This document shows positions 2,041 through 62,207 of a DNA stretch of 64,000 bases, one piece after another. This stretch comes from Asticcacaulis sp. AND118 (GTDB taxonomy: Bacteria > Pseudomonadota > Alphaproteobacteria > Caulobacterales > Caulobacteraceae). Where the stretch lies: NCBI RefSeq assembly GCF_020535245.1, contig NZ_CP084910.1:534501-598500 (forward strand), given 5' to 3'. The translations under genes and the position numbers were made by a program. Every line of letters starts with the position of its first letter. Within the stretch, counting starts at the first letter, position 1. The notes beneath the pieces were generated by a model that saw nothing but the letters and a program-made list of their open reading frames with translations, was not told the DNA's origin and did not search any database.

Positions 2041-2730
2041 CTGAATCGTGCCGCGTTTCTGTCGTTTCTGGCCGGTGGTCTGGCCGCCGCATTTGCGCGT
2101 CCGGCCGGTGCGGCGACCTACGACTTCTGGTTCACGCGCCTGAAATACGCTTCCGGCGACTGGGATGTCGATCAGCGCATGCCGGCCAATATCATCACCT
2201 CGCTGATCGACTACACCACCCTGCGCGTCGATCCGAAAGAGCATGTGATCGACCTTTCCGATCCGAAGATGCTGACCGCGCCCTTCTGCTATCTTTCGGG
2301 GCACAAGCTGGTCGATTTCAGCCCGGCGGAGCGGCGCAATTTCGAGACCTATGTGAAGAATGGCGGCTTCGTCTTCGTCGACGACTGCAACCACGATATA
2401 GACGGCCTGTTCGCCAAATCGTTCGAGCGGCAGATGGCCTCGATCTTCGGGCCCGCCGCCCTGAAAAAGCTGTCCAACAGCCACGCCGTCTATAAGAGCT
2501 TTTTCACATTCGACGGCCCGCCCAACACCGCGTTCGAGTTGAACGGCTGGGGCGACGATCTGGTGCACGACTATCTGAAAGGCATCGAGATCGATGGCCG
2601 TCTGGGCGTGCTCTATTCCAACAAGGACTATGGCTGCGAGTGGGACTACGACTGGCGCAACAAACGCTTTCTGGCCGAAGACAACACGAAATTCGCCGTC
2701 AATATCGTTATCTACGCTTTATCGAGTTGA
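1987..2730 (+). CDS. DUF4159 domain protein, exported
   Basis: 247 residues. After a hydrophobic stretch (AAFLSFLAGGLAAAFA) and a likely signal cleavage near GAA, the mature part has the DUF4159 pattern: FTRLKYASGDWDVD near its start, a FVFVDDCNHD segment, and LGVLYSNKDYGCEWDY near the end. DUF4159 proteins have a flavodoxin/amidotransferase-like fold of unknown activity and are usually encoded with MoxR and DUF58 genes, as here. The ATG at 1987 lies inside a repeat palindrome, so the first 18 residues are repeat-encoded. Initiation at CTG 2041, directly behind GGGAGAGGGAG, is a real alternative that would leave a compact signal peptide. Confidence 0.75.
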   Translation: MQSVTPPSPQPFPLRERELNRAAFLSFLAGGLAAAFARPAGAATYDFWFTRLKYASGDWDVDQRMPANIITSLIDYTTLRVDPKEHVIDLSDPKMLTAPFCYLSGHKLVDFSPAERRNFETYVKNGGFVFVDDCNHDIDGLFAKSFERQMASIFGPAALKKLSNSHAVYKSFFTFDGPPNTAFELNGWGDDLVHDYLKGIEIDGRLGVLYSNKDYGCEWDYDWRNKRFLAEDNTKFAVNIVIYALSS

Positions 2731-2732
2731 TC

Positions 2733-2795
2733 GCCTCATCTGTTCCGAAAAGTGCTGCGGCCCAGGGTCTGAGCGGGCACTTTTCGGGATGAGGC
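2733..2795. repeat. Palindromic repeat, CCGAAAAGTGC family
   Basis: Inverted repeat with outer arms GCCTCATC (2733-2740) and GATGAGGC (2788-2795) and inner arms CCGAAAAGTGC (2745-2755) and GCACTTTTCGG (2777-2787). It sits between the DUF4159 and MoxR genes. It belongs to the dispersed family also found at 4.1, 13.3, 25.9, 45.7, 48.3, 57.9 and 62.1 kb; related elements are common in alphaproteobacterial genomes. Confidence 0.85.
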
Positions 2796-2810
2796 TCACA
2801 TTTGGGGATT

Positions 2811-3806
2811 ATGGACATCATGTCGATCAGTGAAACCGAGATCAGGGAAAGGCTGGCCCGCCTCGGCCACCTGCGTCAGGCCATCGCCCAGGCCATTGTC
2901 GGTCAGGCCGACGTGGTCGAGCAACTGCTGATCGGGCTGCTGGCCGGCGGGCACTGCCTGCTCGAAGGCGTGCCGGGATTGGGCAAGACCCTGCTGGTGC
3001 GCTCGCTGGGTCAGGCTTTGGAGCTACAGTTCCGCCGCGTGCAGTTCACCCCCGACCTGATGCCCAGCGATATTCTGGGGACCGAACTGCTGGAAGAAGA
3101 CCACGGCACGGGCCATCGTCATTTCCGCTTTCAGCCGGGCCCGGTCTTCACCAATCTGCTGCTGGCCGACGAACTGAACCGCACGCCGCCCAAGACTCAG
3201 GCCGCCCTGCTCGAAGCCATGCAGGAACGCACCGTCTCCTATGCCGGGGTGACGCACACCCTGCCGTCGCCCTTCTTCGTGCTGGCGACGCAGAACCCGC
3301 TGGAGCAGGCCGGGACCTATCCGTTGCCCGAAGCGCAGTTGGACCGCTTCCTGCTGCACATCCGCGTCGATTACCCGACCGAGGCCGAGGAACAGGACAT
3401 CCTGCGTCAGACGACCGGTGCAGGTGGCGGGGCCGTGCCCAAGGTCATGGCGGCGGACGATGTGCTGGTGCTGCAAAAGCTGGTACGCGACGTGCATGTG
3501 GGCGAAGACCTGCTGACCTGGATCACGCGGCTGGTGCGCGCCACGCGGCCCGCGCCGGGCGCACCCGAAGCCGTCAACACCTACGTCAAATGGGGCGCCG
3601 GTCCGCGCGCCGGGCAATCGCTGGTGCTGGCGGCCAAGGCCCGCGCCCTGTTGCAGGGGCGGCTGGCGGCGACGCGCGAAGACGTGGTGGCGCTGGCCGC
3701 GCCGGTCATGCGCCACCGCCTGCTGATGTCGTTCGCCGCCGAAGCCGAGGGCGTCGCGCCCGACACGGTGGTCGCCGCCCTCCTGAGCGCCGTGAAGCTT
3801 CGATAA
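2811..3806 (+). CDS. MoxR-family AAA+ ATPase
   Basis: 331 residues. Walker A is GVPGLGKT, the Walker B region is LLLADELNR, and LATQNPLEQAGTYPLPEAQLDRF is the classic MoxR sensor/arginine-finger stretch (seen as ATQNPLEQ and LPEAQLDRF). MoxR ATPases act as chaperones that mature or activate partner complexes, commonly with a DUF58/VWA protein, which is the next gene. I prefer the ATG at 2811, four bases after GGGG. The ATG at 2820 and the TTG at 2802 are in frame and cannot be excluded. Confidence 0.92.
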   Translation: MDIMSISETEIRERLARLGHLRQAIAQAIVGQADVVEQLLIGLLAGGHCLLEGVPGLGKTLLVRSLGQALELQFRRVQFTPDLMPSDILGTELLEEDHGTGHRHFRFQPGPVFTNLLLADELNRTPPKTQAALLEAMQERTVSYAGVTHTLPSPFFVLATQNPLEQAGTYPLPEAQLDRFLLHIRVDYPTEAEEQDILRQTTGAGGGAVPKVMAADDVLVLQKLVRDVHVGEDLLTWITRLVRATRPAPGAPEAVNTYVKWGAGPRAGQSLVLAAKARALLQGRLAATREDVVALAAPVMRHRLLMSFAAEAEGVAPDTVVAALLSAVKLR

Positions 3807-3821
3807 CCAAGCTCTGATTTG

Positions 3822-4778
3822 ATGACTTACGACCCGATCCCGTCCGATGTGCGCCACAGGCTGAAAGGCCTGCGCCTGTTTGCGCGTCGGGCGTCGGGGG
3901 CTTCGGGGATCGGTCTGCATGCCTCGCGTTCGCGCGGGGCGGGGCTGGAATTCGCGCAATACCGCGCCTATGAACCCGGCGACGAACTGCGTCAGATCGA
4001 CTGGAAGCTCTATGCGCGCTCGGACAAGTTCTTCGTGCGTGAGGCCGAGCGCGAAAGCCCGCTCAGGCTATGGATGGTGCTCGACCTGTCGGCGTCGATG
4101 GGGCAGGGGGACGGAGCATTTCCAGAAAAAGTGGGTACCGGTTTTTCGCCCGGAAATGCGACCCCTAAAAAAGCCGCGCGAGCCGATTGGTCACGCCTCG
4201 ATGCGGCCAGGGCTATGGCGGCCTGCGTCGGCGAACTGGCGCTGCGGCAGGGCGACGGTTTCGGCCTGATCGCGCTCAGCGACCGCGGCGTGGCGGTGGT
4301 CGATGCGGGCGTGGGGTTGAAGGCGCGCGACCGGCTGCGACTGGAACTGTTCAAGCTCAAGGCCGGAGGCGGATTTCCGTCCGCGGCGCAGTTGTCCCCG
4401 GTATGGGGCCGCATTCGCGCGCAGGACATGGTCGTCGTCTTCAGCGACGGTTTCGACGAAGGCTGCACCGAACTGATGACGCGGCTGTCGGCGGCCGGGC
4501 GCGAAGTGCTGATGGTCCAGACCCTGACGGCTGAGGAACGCGACTTTCCGTTTCAGGGCGGCTATCGCTTCGACGATCCGGAAGGCGGGGCCGAAGTGCT
4601 GGGCGACGGCAAGGCCTTGCGCGCCGACTTCCTCAAACGCTTCGCCGCTGCACGTCAGACCTTCGAGGCGCGGCTGTTCGCGGCGGGGGTGCGGCATACG
4701 CATTACTGGCTGGATGAGCCGGTCGATGCGCCGTTGTGGCGGCTTTTCGGTCCAAAAACCTCAGGAAAGGAGACGTGA
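3822..4778 (+). CDS. DUF58 / VWA-like protein with an in-frame repeat insertion
   Basis: 318 residues. The DUF58 signature is clear: FAQYRAYEPGDELRQIDWKLYARSDKFFVREAE (read as YEPGDELRQIDWKLYARSDK) followed by the MIDAS-like DLSASMG. DUF58 proteins are MoxR partners. Between DLSASMG and the next conserved helix (WSRLDAARAM), about 25 residues (roughly 96-120) are encoded by a CCGAAAAGTG-type palindrome at 4116-4159 and its flank. They carry no recognisable DUF58 sequence and are rich in G, P, K and A, so they probably form a surface loop. The start is ATG 3822; TTG 3819 is possible. The stop overlaps the next ATG by one base (TGATG). Confidence 0.88.
   Translation: MTYDPIPSDVRHRLKGLRLFARRASGASGIGLHASRSRGAGLEFAQYRAYEPGDELRQIDWKLYARSDKFFVREAERESPLRLWMVLDLSASMGQGDGAFPEKVGTGFSPGNATPKKAARADWSRLDAARAMAACVGELALRQGDGFGLIALSDRGVAVVDAGVGLKARDRLRLELFKLKAGGGFPSAAQLSPVWGRIRAQDMVVVFSDGFDEGCTELMTRLSAAGREVLMVQTLTAEERDFPFQGGYRFDDPEGGAEVLGDGKALRADFLKRFAAARQTFEARLFAAGVRHTHYWLDEPVDAPLWRLFGPKTSGKET
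4116..4159. repeat. Palindromic repeat inserted in frame within the DUF58 gene
   Basis: The arms GCATTTCC (4116-4123) and GGAAATGC (4152-4159) flank AGAAAAAGTGGGTACC and GGTTTTTCGCCC, which match the intergenic palindromes of this window. The frame stays open through the element, so the gene appears intact but lengthened. Confidence 0.85.
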
Positions 4779-13088: not shown

Positions 13089-13394
13089 CCGTTCGTCTCC
13101 CTTATCCCTGCGGCCCTGTTATCCCGTATGAGCACAGGATGCGCCGCTTCTTCCTGTCTATAAGCAGGATCAGTGCCAACCACTGCCACAAAGGTTAACG
13201 GCGGTAAAGCGCTTTCGTTAACCAATCACGCGATTGAGAGGATTGGGATTTTCGGAGATTTTGAATAACGCGGTTAACGCTGGTTGTTCCGAACCGGGAC
13301 CGGTTCAAGCGCATTCCGAAAAGTGGAACGCACTTTTCGGATACAAATGCGCGTCAAACAGAATCGTAAACAGGGCTTCGATTAGAAGCGCTGT
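13089..13394. other. Intergenic region with promoter space and repeats
   Basis: 306 bases upstream of the exported VCBS-like gene and downstream of the next minus-strand gene. It contains several GTTAAC motifs (about 13194, 13217, 13271), the palindromic repeat at 13309-13352 and a hairpin (CGTAAACAG...CTGTTTACG, about 13364-13399) that overlaps the end of the neighbouring gene and may end its transcript. I see no further gene. Confidence 0.6.
13309..13352. repeat. Palindromic repeat, CCGAAAAGTGC family
   Basis: A near-perfect copy: GCGCATTCCGAAAAGTG on the left and CACTTTTCGG...ATGCGC on the right, with GAACG in the middle. It is followed by GTCAAACAGAATC, comparable to the GGCAAAACAA tail of the copy at 57.9 kb. 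Confidence 0.9.
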
Positions 13395-25920: not shown

Positions 25921-26019
25921 AGAGCGCAATCCGATAAAGCGGGCACCACTTTTTGGAAAAATTGCGCGACCACTCAAAAACTGAGAGCGAGATGATGTTT
26001 CCACTTTAAATCATCTCGC
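25921..26019. repeat. Composite double-palindrome repeat (plus orientation)
   Basis: It begins AGAGCGCAATCCGATAAAGC, continues through CACCACTTTTTGGAAAAATTGCGCG, then GACCACTCAAAAACTGA, then a second hairpin GAGCGAGATGATG...AATCATCTCGC. The copy at 45704-45825 is its reverse complement with few changes plus about 20 extra bases. Confidence 0.9.
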
Positions 26020-45703: not shown

Positions 45704-45825
45704 GAGCGAGATGATTTAACGTGGACACATCATCTCGCTCTCAGTTTTTGAGTGGTCGCGCCATTTTTCCGAAACGAAGTTCGGCGAAGCCAAAAGGGGT
45801 GCCCACCTTATCGGATTGCGCTCTA
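45704..45825. repeat. Composite double-palindrome repeat (minus orientation)
   Basis: Reverse complement of 25921-26019: GAGCGAGATGATTTAACG...CATCATCTCGCTC, CAGTTTTTGAGTGGTCGCGC, then TTTTTCCGAAACGAAG...GGTGCCCACCTTATCGGATTGCGCTCT. A segment of about 20 bases (GAAACGAAGTTCGGCGAAGC) is extra in this copy. It reaches the cheR stop codon. Confidence 0.9.
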
Positions 45826-48251: not shown

Positions 48252-48276
48252 GGCGATTTTTTTTCCTGAGCCCGTA

Positions 48277-48321
48277 AGCGCAATCCGAAAAGTGGGCACC
48301 GGTTTTCGGATTCAATGGCGC
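48277..48321. repeat. Palindromic repeat between cheY and cheW
   Basis: AGCGCAATCCGAAAAGTGGG and CGGTTTTCGGATTCAATGGCGC around CAC. It carries a GATTC site. The element interrupts the otherwise compact che operon and lies 9 bases from the cheW stop. Confidence 0.88.
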
Positions 48322-48329
48322 GCCAAACT

Positions 48330-57886: not shown

Positions 57887-57891
57887 TTAGA

Positions 57892-57990
57892 GCGCATTCC
57901 AAAAAGTGTGCAGCGGTTTTTGGAATCACATGCGCGGCAAAACAAAAAACTTAGAGCGGTTATACGACCTCGTCGGATTGACGCTCTAAG
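57892..57990. repeat. Palindromic repeat plus second hairpin before sufE end
   Basis: GCGCATTCCAAAAAGTG and GGTTTTTGGAATCACATGCGC (57892-57935), then GGCAAAACAAAAAAC, then a second hairpin CTTAGAGCG...CGCTCTAAG (57950-57990) that includes the sufE stop codon. It lies between converging genes and may serve as a terminator. Confidence 0.88.
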
Positions 57991-61166: not shown

Positions 61167-62207
61167 TTACTGTCCATACGGCGAGGGCAGGGTCGCGAAG
61201 ACCAGCCCCGGCACGAAGTCACCGGCTTCGAAGCGCGCATATTGCGTGCCGTTGTTGAACTCGAACGCCACCACGACATCCTCGCGCGGGTCCAGCTTGC
61301 CGATGGCCACCGTGGCGTTCATCGGGAAGTCGAAGCGCAGGGTGTCGCGCTTTTCGGCGTGGCCGGCGAATTTTCCATCGACCGTGAACCCGGCCAGATT
61401 GACGCGCGGTGTGTTCTTCAGCGCGATTTGCGTTTCGCGGCGGTTCGAGGCGGCGAAGCTCAGATCGTAGCGGCTGAGGCCCTTCGGCATCTGCGCCGAT
61501 ACGGCCAGAGCTTCGCGATTGATGAAGCCGGTGGCGCGGGTCTTGGGGTCGCGCACGATCAGGCGCGCCGCATAGGGCTGCTCGCCGTTGAACTGCGCCA
61601 TAACGCTCAGATTCTGACCTTTCAGTGTACCGTAGAGGCCGAAGGCCATCGAGACATTGCCGGTCTGCTGGTACTGCACCAGACGCCATTTCGACAGGTT
61701 CTGTTCCGTGCGGTCGGCCAGCCATTCACTGCGCAGACCGGGCAGGCTCAGACGGTTCTGCGCCACGAAGCCGCGATAGGCGCCGCGCATCGTCTCGACT
61801 TCCTTGACCAGCGCGGGATTGTTGCATTCGGCGCGCCAGGCGGCGGTGCGGGCGCGGTCGAGCGCGCCATAGACGGTTGCAGGGGCGACGCCGTGATTGA
61901 GCGCGGCATTGCGGTTCTGCAGCAGGCCGGCCTTCAGCGCAAGCGTCGTCGGGCCGTCGAACCACTGACAGCGGGCATTGGCCGTGCTGATGAACTGGCG
62001 CTTGGTCAGCGTGTCGAGAGACACGGTTTCAGCGGCGGCACCGGTGGCGGTCAGCATCAGCGCGAGAGCGGTACCCAGCACACATCCCAATCTTTTCAGA
62101 TTGGAATGCTTTTCTGGGGTTTTGTCTGGTCGCGCATTTGAGTCCGAAAAGTGCGTCCCACTTTTCGGCATGCGCTTGGAAATTTTAAAGCGATACACGT
62201 TCGACAT
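61167..62207 (-). CDS. Exported protein of unknown function with repeat-encoded N-terminus
   Basis: 346 residues as drawn. A signal peptide lies at about residues 38-60 (LKRLGCVLGTALALMLTATG, cleavage near AAA-E), unusually far from the start. Residues of about 12-27 are encoded by a palindromic repeat (62132-62175), so initiation may really be further downstream at a non-ATG codon. The mature part has paired cysteines (ANARCQWFDG, WRAECNNPAL) and a C-terminal beta-rich half (VDGKFAGHAEKRDTLRFDFP). No family recognised. It converges on the DivJ-like gene with no gap. Confidence 0.65.
   Translation of the reverse strand: MSNVYRFKISKRMPKSGTHFSDSNARPDKTPEKHSNLKRLGCVLGTALALMLTATGAAAETVSLDTLTKRQFISTANARCQWFDGPTTLALKAGLLQNRNAALNHGVAPATVYGALDRARTAAWRAECNNPALVKEVETMRGAYRGFVAQNRLSLPGLRSEWLADRTEQNLSKWRLVQYQQTGNVSMAFGLYGTLKGQNLSVMAQFNGEQPYAARLIVRDPKTRATGFINREALAVSAQMPKGLSRYDLSFAASNRRETQIALKNTPRVNLAGFTVDGKFAGHAEKRDTLRFDFPMNATVAIGKLDPREDVVVAFEFNNGTQYARFEAGDFVPGLVFATLPSPYGQ
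62132..62175. repeat. Palindromic repeat at the 5' end of an exported-protein gene
   Basis: GCGCATTTGAGTCCGAAAAGTGCG and CCACTTTTCGGCATGCGC around TC (quoted in short arms: CCGAAAAGTG / CACTTTTCGG). It carries a GAGTC site. Confidence 0.88.

Follow-up and report, generated by a model that had tools for sequence, protein, structure and literature searches.

A dispersed palindromic element, very probably captured in frame, within a DUF58 gene of Asticcacaulis

In the 64,000-nucleotide stretch of the Asticcacaulis sp. AND118 genome analyzed here (the window), the coding sequence of a DUF58 protein contains a palindrome across which the reading frame stays open, and we asked how such a segment came to lie within a gene. 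A sequence-only reading had proposed that a dispersed palindromic repeat was captured in frame at this place, between the DLSASMG motif of the protein and its next helix. The filled and empty sites found among close relatives bear out such a capture, and we consider it very likely that the segment is a non-autonomous mobile palindrome of a family dispersed in Asticcacaulis, captured in frame here and repeatedly within the genus.

The DUF58 gene and its inserted segment

The source genome of the window (G000) comprises 4.05 Mb in four contigs. Its DUF58 gene product matched PF01882 with an E-value of 3e-29, the match being split over two stretches, and is 91% identical to the DUF58 protein of Asticcacaulis currens. 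The palindrome noted earlier within this open reading frame (ORF) was confirmed from the sequence, with the frame open (Table 1). When the protein was aligned with 44 of 80 homologous loci, giving 45 rows of which 39 came from outside the genus, the insertion was present in two proteins, that of the window and that of A. currens, and each of the remaining 43 rows had letters in 2 of the 20 insertion columns, which represents boundary ambiguity. The gap at the segment that the sequence-only reading had anticipated from insertion is thereby found, and a search for repeat-free orthologues with the same segment gave none among these 43 rows (0/43); the gain amounts to 20 residues (98–117), not to the about 25 (96–120) first estimated.

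At the level of genomes, a DUF58 match of E 1e-40 or better was found in 8 of 25 from the genus. The insertion was present in three of these eight (G000, G004 and G007) and the site was empty in five (G006, G015, G018, G013 and G001); the codon alignment by which the inserted stretch was delimited included these five empty-site genomes together with the further filled G004 and G007. The inserted hairpin has a folding energy of −19.2 kcal/mol and is moderately unusual as RNA, with a z-score of −2.4 and equal folding in 2 of 200 shuffled sequences.

Table 1. Coordinates of the DUF58 locus and of the palindrome family copies within the window
Feature	Position	Strand	Basis
MoxR-type AAA+ ATPase gene, upstream of DUF58 gene	2802..3806	+	PF07726, E 9e-63
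DUF58 / von Willebrand A-like protein gene, 318 aa	3822..4778	+	ORF list; PF01882; vWA-type Foldseek matches
Insertion, 60 bp = 20 codons (GAFPEKVGTGFSPGNATPKK), palindrome and tail	4113..4172	+	Codon alignment with orthologues; ends uncertain by a few bases
Palindrome in DUF58 gene	4116..4159	+	8-base outer arms GCATTTCC / GGAAATGC, inner stem
Family copy, longer middle, no convincing gene across	2730..2797	-	Family model; ORF check
Family copy, no convincing gene across	13306..13356	+	Family model; ORF check
Family copy, no convincing gene across	25921..25971	+	Family model; ORF check
Family copy, longer middle, no convincing gene across	45754..45824	-	Family model; ORF check
Family copy, no convincing gene across	48275..48325	+	Family model; ORF check
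Family copy, no convincing gene across	57889..57939	+	Family model; ORF check
Family copy, no convincing gene across	62128..62178	-	Family model; ORF check

The proposed position within the protein agreed with both the alignment and the predicted structure, in which the segment sits between the strand leading into DLSASMG and a helix at residues 125–143. We take DLSASMG to be a MIDAS-type motif, and Foldseek searches with the model retrieved vWA domains at modest TM-scores (CLCA1, 0.38 by query). In the AlphaFold2 model residues 100–118 have pLDDT values below 50, as compared with block means of 90–96 over residues 121–240, and the inserted loop is thus probably disordered; since residues 25–78 are also mostly below 50 (with the blocks of 241–270 at 63–83), a low score is by itself no proof of disorder.

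The palindrome family and its captured copies

The sequence CCGAAAAGTG, allowing at most one mismatch, occurred 12 times in the window as compared with 4.1 expected, a count reached in none of 100 shuffles, and the DUF58 site is not among these 12 matches. It had been suggested that the DUF58 palindrome shares its arms with the intergenic CCGAAAAGTG palindromes; this held for the core, which is common to both, but not for the outer arms, the DUF58 copy being of a subtype, CCAGAAAAAGTGG...CCGGTTTTTCGCCCGG, having the family core with other outer arms. A second copy elsewhere in G000 resembles the DUF58 element (45 bases, 91% identity, E 1e-11), and the 32-base subtype was also found in G001 and G013, by our reading apparently just 5′ of a start codon. 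The core pattern (at most two mismatches) was found at 62 places in G000. A covariance model of the family gave eight places in the window below E 1e-4, with a convincing gene only at the DUF58 one, where the match covers 4113–4163 with E 2.6e-9, this copy being one of the 50 training rows; the same-subtype copies in G001 and G013, both outside the training set, scored 46–47 bits (E 1–3e-9).

With this model at E 0.01, and up to 150 candidates scored per genome, the family was found in all 25 genomes of the genus, at 27 to at least 147 copies each, G000 having at least 147 matches at E ≤ 0.01. In the 50 G000 copies used for covariation analysis 97.3% of the stem cells were paired, and both sides had changed in 9 of the 14 stem pairs (69 cells), values reached in none of 500 shuffles; these 50 were taken from 58 hairpin copies, and the omission of the other eight, being four repeats from tandem arrays together with four loci with odd or longer arms (L105, L150 in its minus copy, L152 and L156), favours the stem. 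Two captured copies, those of DUF58 and of the AHSA1 protein described below, were among the training rows. Captured copies on which the model was not trained were also recovered, at E 2e-12 or better for the unnamed ORF, hydrolase site 2, AddA, HisF and UbiD, at 1e-6 for hydrolase site 1 and at 8e-4 for the halogenase. Membership of an Rfam family was dropped as a possibility, with no match above gathering score in 11 loci. The motif GANTC is present in 19 of the 50 family copies, as compared with about 5 of 50 random stretches of the window. We also observed five head-to-tail copies with a 55-bp period, included in the core places above and apparently between genes (L144, 5270–5560; G000:C1:2254360–2254600), and several copies of a longer, apparently two-armed palindrome of ~100 bp, AGATGATTT...CCGAAAAGTGGTGCCCACTTTATCGG (L004, L006 and L007; G000:C1, e.g. 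at 252226).

Nine capture sites in eight genes, i.e. the DUF58 site and eight sites in seven further genes, could be verified by shorter orthologues within the genus, with insertions of 54–60 bp at eight of the nine and of 75 bp at one. Two of these further genes are in G000 itself: a tryptophan halogenase-like protein (PF04820) with 18 additional residues in frame as compared with a 73% identical orthologue, and a two-domain AHSA1/SRPBCC (AHSA1/Polyketide_cyc2) protein with 20 additional residues in frame in its linker. In the survey of G007 and G004, 53 and 48 core sites, respectively, were examined, of which 50 and 45 had a hairpin. HisF carries 18 additional residues in G007, G004, G015 and G006, the site being empty in G018 and G013. 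A 3-hydroxyisobutyryl-CoA hydrolase holds two elements in one protein, of 18 and 19 residues (L302; G007:C1, ~1562500–1562760), the first filled in G007, G015 and the outgroup G013 and empty in G018, G006 and G000, the second filled in G007, G015 and G018 and empty in G006, G013 and G000. UbiD is longer by 20 residues in G004 alone of six aligned genomes, with the other five empty, and both AddA (18 residues) and an unnamed 589-residue ORF (L324; 25 residues) are filled in G007 and G015 and empty in five genomes. The latter ORF had no Pfam or NCBIfam match and was kept in the count because seven homologues align with it.

From five other genomes of the genus we drew 40 more loci holding 46 copies, not at random but from among the best scores; these gave the case of PanE (L446), in which the element is visible by comparison with a PDB homologue, this being the sole comparison for it. 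Further internal in-frame candidates with Pfam domains, outside the nine, were seen in a phytase-like protein (PF13449) and an FAD amine-oxidase-like protein (PF01593) of G017 and G001 (L435 and L448). Elements were also seen at the predicted N-termini of four proteins (L098, L288, L441 and L459), where they are either read or lie 5′ of the true start codon; these were left out of the count because the start codon may follow the element. Nine same-strand ORFs without Pfam match were likewise left out as probably not being genes, as was L368, which looks like a real membrane protein, having a marginal element (E 0.005).

The longer proteins are presumably made and functional. Carrier HisF scored 317 against an NCBIfam cut-off of 295 and the carrier hydrolase 378 against 274; UbiD, which is cut off by the end of its locus, passed the cut-off of TIGR00148 and fell short of the NF008175 one, while AddA entered as a fragment. 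Alignments of HisF, UbiD and PanE with PDB chains are interrupted at the insertion, with 37, 28 and 34 residues facing 15, 3 and none of the PDB chain, respectively. The mean hydropathy of the captured peptide is negative in eight of nine cases. Three forward frames are used, encoding PKSxxRFS at five sites, a SEKWEPVFG-like peptide at two and PEKVxxGFSPG at two.

Related palindromes were also found outside the genus, in 222 plasmid records, mostly of Rhizobiaceae, and in two weak phage records of 50,697. We inspected 11 plasmid copies (10 from Rhizobiaceae and one from Sulfitobacter), picked where an annotated gene underlies the match, among the matches listed for 60 of 222 and 40 of 170 records; nine had E-values below 1e-5 with the family model and two of ~9e-5. 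They share stem and core with the Asticcacaulis family but differ from it in that none of the 11, among those matches listed, lay mid-gene in a named protein; with that share of the records listed, internal captures may nevertheless exist on such plasmids. In seven of the 11 a gene runs with its 3′ end 2 to about 24 bases into the element, in two (L262 and L267) a predicted start lies inside it, in one (L270) the element is in a small hypothetical ORF, and in one (L268) it is wholly inside a thioesterase gene, within the last codons. On five rhizobial plasmids (L260, L261, L263, L264 and L266) the element starts, as TAGAGC, right at the stop codon of the preceding gene, and it seems that the rhizobial repeat supplies or abuts that stop. 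A strict 25-base core was matched in 4 of 385 genomes of the class, one being G000, and this is no measure of range because it missed the rhizobial subtype.

Origin, history and reading direction of the captured copies

The capture that we favour would have involved one hairpin of ~51 bp with a short tail, inserted after the DLSASMG motif and ahead of the helix that follows. Because its length is divisible by three and its frame is free of stops, the DUF58 protein gained a 20-residue loop and stayed intact. Selection presumably purges insertions that break genes and leaves in-frame ones where the protein tolerates them, for instance in a loop or linker, and the element may be mobilised by a transposase supplied in trans. 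A mobiliser of the RAYT/IS200 type was sought in the three carrier genomes and discarded, with no Y1 transposase (PF01797) found in G000, G004 or G007; such transposases are present in 4 of 25 genomes of the genus. No consistent target-site duplication was seen, as by our reading UbiD fits one of 2–3 bp and DUF58, HisF, AddA and the hydrolase have none that is clean.

Could the segment instead be a DUF58 loop that expanded in the ordinary way and is palindromic by chance? Orthologues do vary in sequence right after the DxSxS motif, but the segment is made of the same DNA as a dispersed family, with its second genomic copy, its empty sites and the recurrence of its 32-base subtype in G001 and G013, and an almost identical peptide, PEKVxxGFSPG, occurs in the unrelated halogenase, all of which makes such a coincidence highly improbable. 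An error of sequencing or assembly that placed a repeat in the gene, in favour of which we found nothing, is hardly credible at all, considering that the assemblies of three genomes share the insertion with an intact frame and that the two positions at which their elements differ over 51 bp are both synonymous. With family copies, empty sites and the agreement of three genomes, we rejected both explanations. The short forms could also be losses, an old insertion of the genus having been precisely excised several times. In a tree of three genes (MoxR, DUF58 and the next gene) the carriers G000, G007 and G004 surround the non-carriers G015, G006 and G018, and hydrolase site 1 is filled in the outgroup while being empty in three ingroup genomes, as this would have it. 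However, the most distant orthologues within the genus (G013 and G001) and all 39 rows from outside it lack the DUF58 insertion, the pairing of G004 with G015 has a support of 62% only, UbiD is filled in a single genome, and the hisF of G018 has its nearest relative elsewhere than in the sister genome G006, a pattern favouring recombination of alleles; we thus regard repeated excision as unlikely. As the presence pattern of the DUF58 insertion does not simply follow the gene tree, some recombination, loss or repeated arrival has to be assumed. Where the G013 and G007 elements of hydrolase site 1 differ, the changes are paired across the two arms, as either a repeated arrival or compensation would produce.

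Within capture in frame as the preferred reading, the captured elements might be more than tolerated, i.e. coding-competent, read with a strand bias, kept as hairpins by selection or conversion, and providing a running supply of loops. All nine verified sites as well as PanE are read from the strand showing AAAAGTG...CGGTTTT. For 153 hairpin copies of three genomes, 290 of 459 forward frames and 314 of 459 reverse frames were open over 60 bp; reverse frames being equally open, stops do not account for the reading of one strand. Nine of nine on one strand would under that ratio have a chance of ~0.001, by our own arithmetic and with a test chosen post hoc, and the apparent bias was itself noticed only afterwards. 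Among reverse-strand ORFs, 6 of 31 had a Pfam match, in all six wholly past the element; the 32 rows of this set stand for 31 different ORFs, each extending 35 residues or more beyond the element in both directions, and G006 was covered by 10 of its 16 places. The DUF58 element furthermore changes more slowly than the rest of its gene, with 1 of 51 bases differing between G000 and G004 as compared with 135 of 915 (Fisher p 0.006), and six sites pooled, with one genome pair per site chosen by us, gave 9 of 309 as compared with 510 of 7692 (p 0.006). Without DUF58, however, the pooled difference was not significant (8/258 versus 375/6777, p 0.09), the AddA element is no more conserved than its gene (2/48 versus 73/1953), and in G006 the HisF element shows drift at 5 of 51 bases, with four changed codons synonymous. 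The paired arm changes at hydrolase site 1 would fit a maintained hairpin. We put forward only tentatively, as a doubtful though possible extension, that a type of alphaproteobacterial palindrome thought to be purely intergenic may be a coding-competent mobile element in free-living bacteria, read from one strand, entering conserved enzymes, in some cases twice per protein and, in species far apart, at an identical codon, with its hairpin kept by selection or conversion and acting as a continuing source of loops.

Comparison with known palindromic repeats

The best-known palindromes that encode protein come from Rickettsia and Wolbachia, two genera in which cultivation and manipulation are both difficult. 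Asticcacaulis is free-living and grows in culture, its carrier and non-carrier species are close, and targets such as HisF and UbiD have assayable functions, so that whether captured segments are neutral baggage or useful loops becomes a directly testable question.

Rickettsia palindromic elements (RPE) were reportedly described by Ogata in 2000 and 2002. They are given as about 105–150 bp long, lying between genes and in frame within unrelated conserved proteins, in two reviews (PMC2229807 and PMC10969869). The Asticcacaulis element is, like them, a dispersed palindromic repeat with intergenic copies as well as copies read in frame in conserved proteins unrelated to each other, but its 54–60 bp (75 bp once) contrast with the greater length of RPE, its hosts are free-living whereas Rickettsia is obligately intracellular, and it is read in three frames; it is set apart from RPE by the description of the latter.

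CcrM-associated intergenic repeats (CIR) are said to have been described by Chen and Shapiro in 2003. The same reviews report CIR from Caulobacter and other alphaproteobacteria as ~110 bp long, made of two stem-loops and a linker between them (PMC10969869 and PMC2229807), as 'strictly intergenic' (the 2024 review, PMC10969869), as tabled without an open reading frame (PMC2229807) and as associated with the methylation site GANTC. The likeness lies in being an alphaproteobacterial repeat, 19 of 50 family copies holding GANTC and the DUF58 copy not being one of them; the apparently two-armed ~100-bp copies of G000 are also reminiscent of the two-stem layout. The DUF58 copy, in contrast, has one stem-loop, and nine sites of its family lie in genes, so that by description it is set apart from CIR.

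Intragenic REPs of the GTAG and CGTC superfamilies (Di Nocera 2013) are described as palindromes wholly inside ORFs of various bacteria, with dimers or groups encoding 20–30 residues, with genes of the recBCD type among their targets and, for GTAG repeats, often with RAYT genes nearby (PMC3733652). Short palindromes within ORFs and recBCD-type targets, here AddA, are shared with the Asticcacaulis element; the frequent vicinity of GTAG repeats to RAYT genes differs from the three Asticcacaulis carriers, being without Y1 transposase. E. litoralis and S. alaskensis belong to the Sphingomonadales. Both are named among species with intragenic REPs in that paper, and in-frame capture, which the sequence-only reading had rightly cited for Rickettsia, is hence not confined to that genus (PMC3733652). 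As to other prokaryotes, the 2024 review goes no further than calling this route of protein evolution 'conceivable' (PMC10969869), even though an earlier paper already lists intragenic REPs (PMC3733652). In open-access literature we found no report of such a capture for Asticcacaulis, Caulobacter or Caulobacterales, in line with the earlier statement that no description was known from the order. With RPE and intragenic REPs as precedents the kind of event is thus known, and it is the element, the host group and the reading behaviour that are new.
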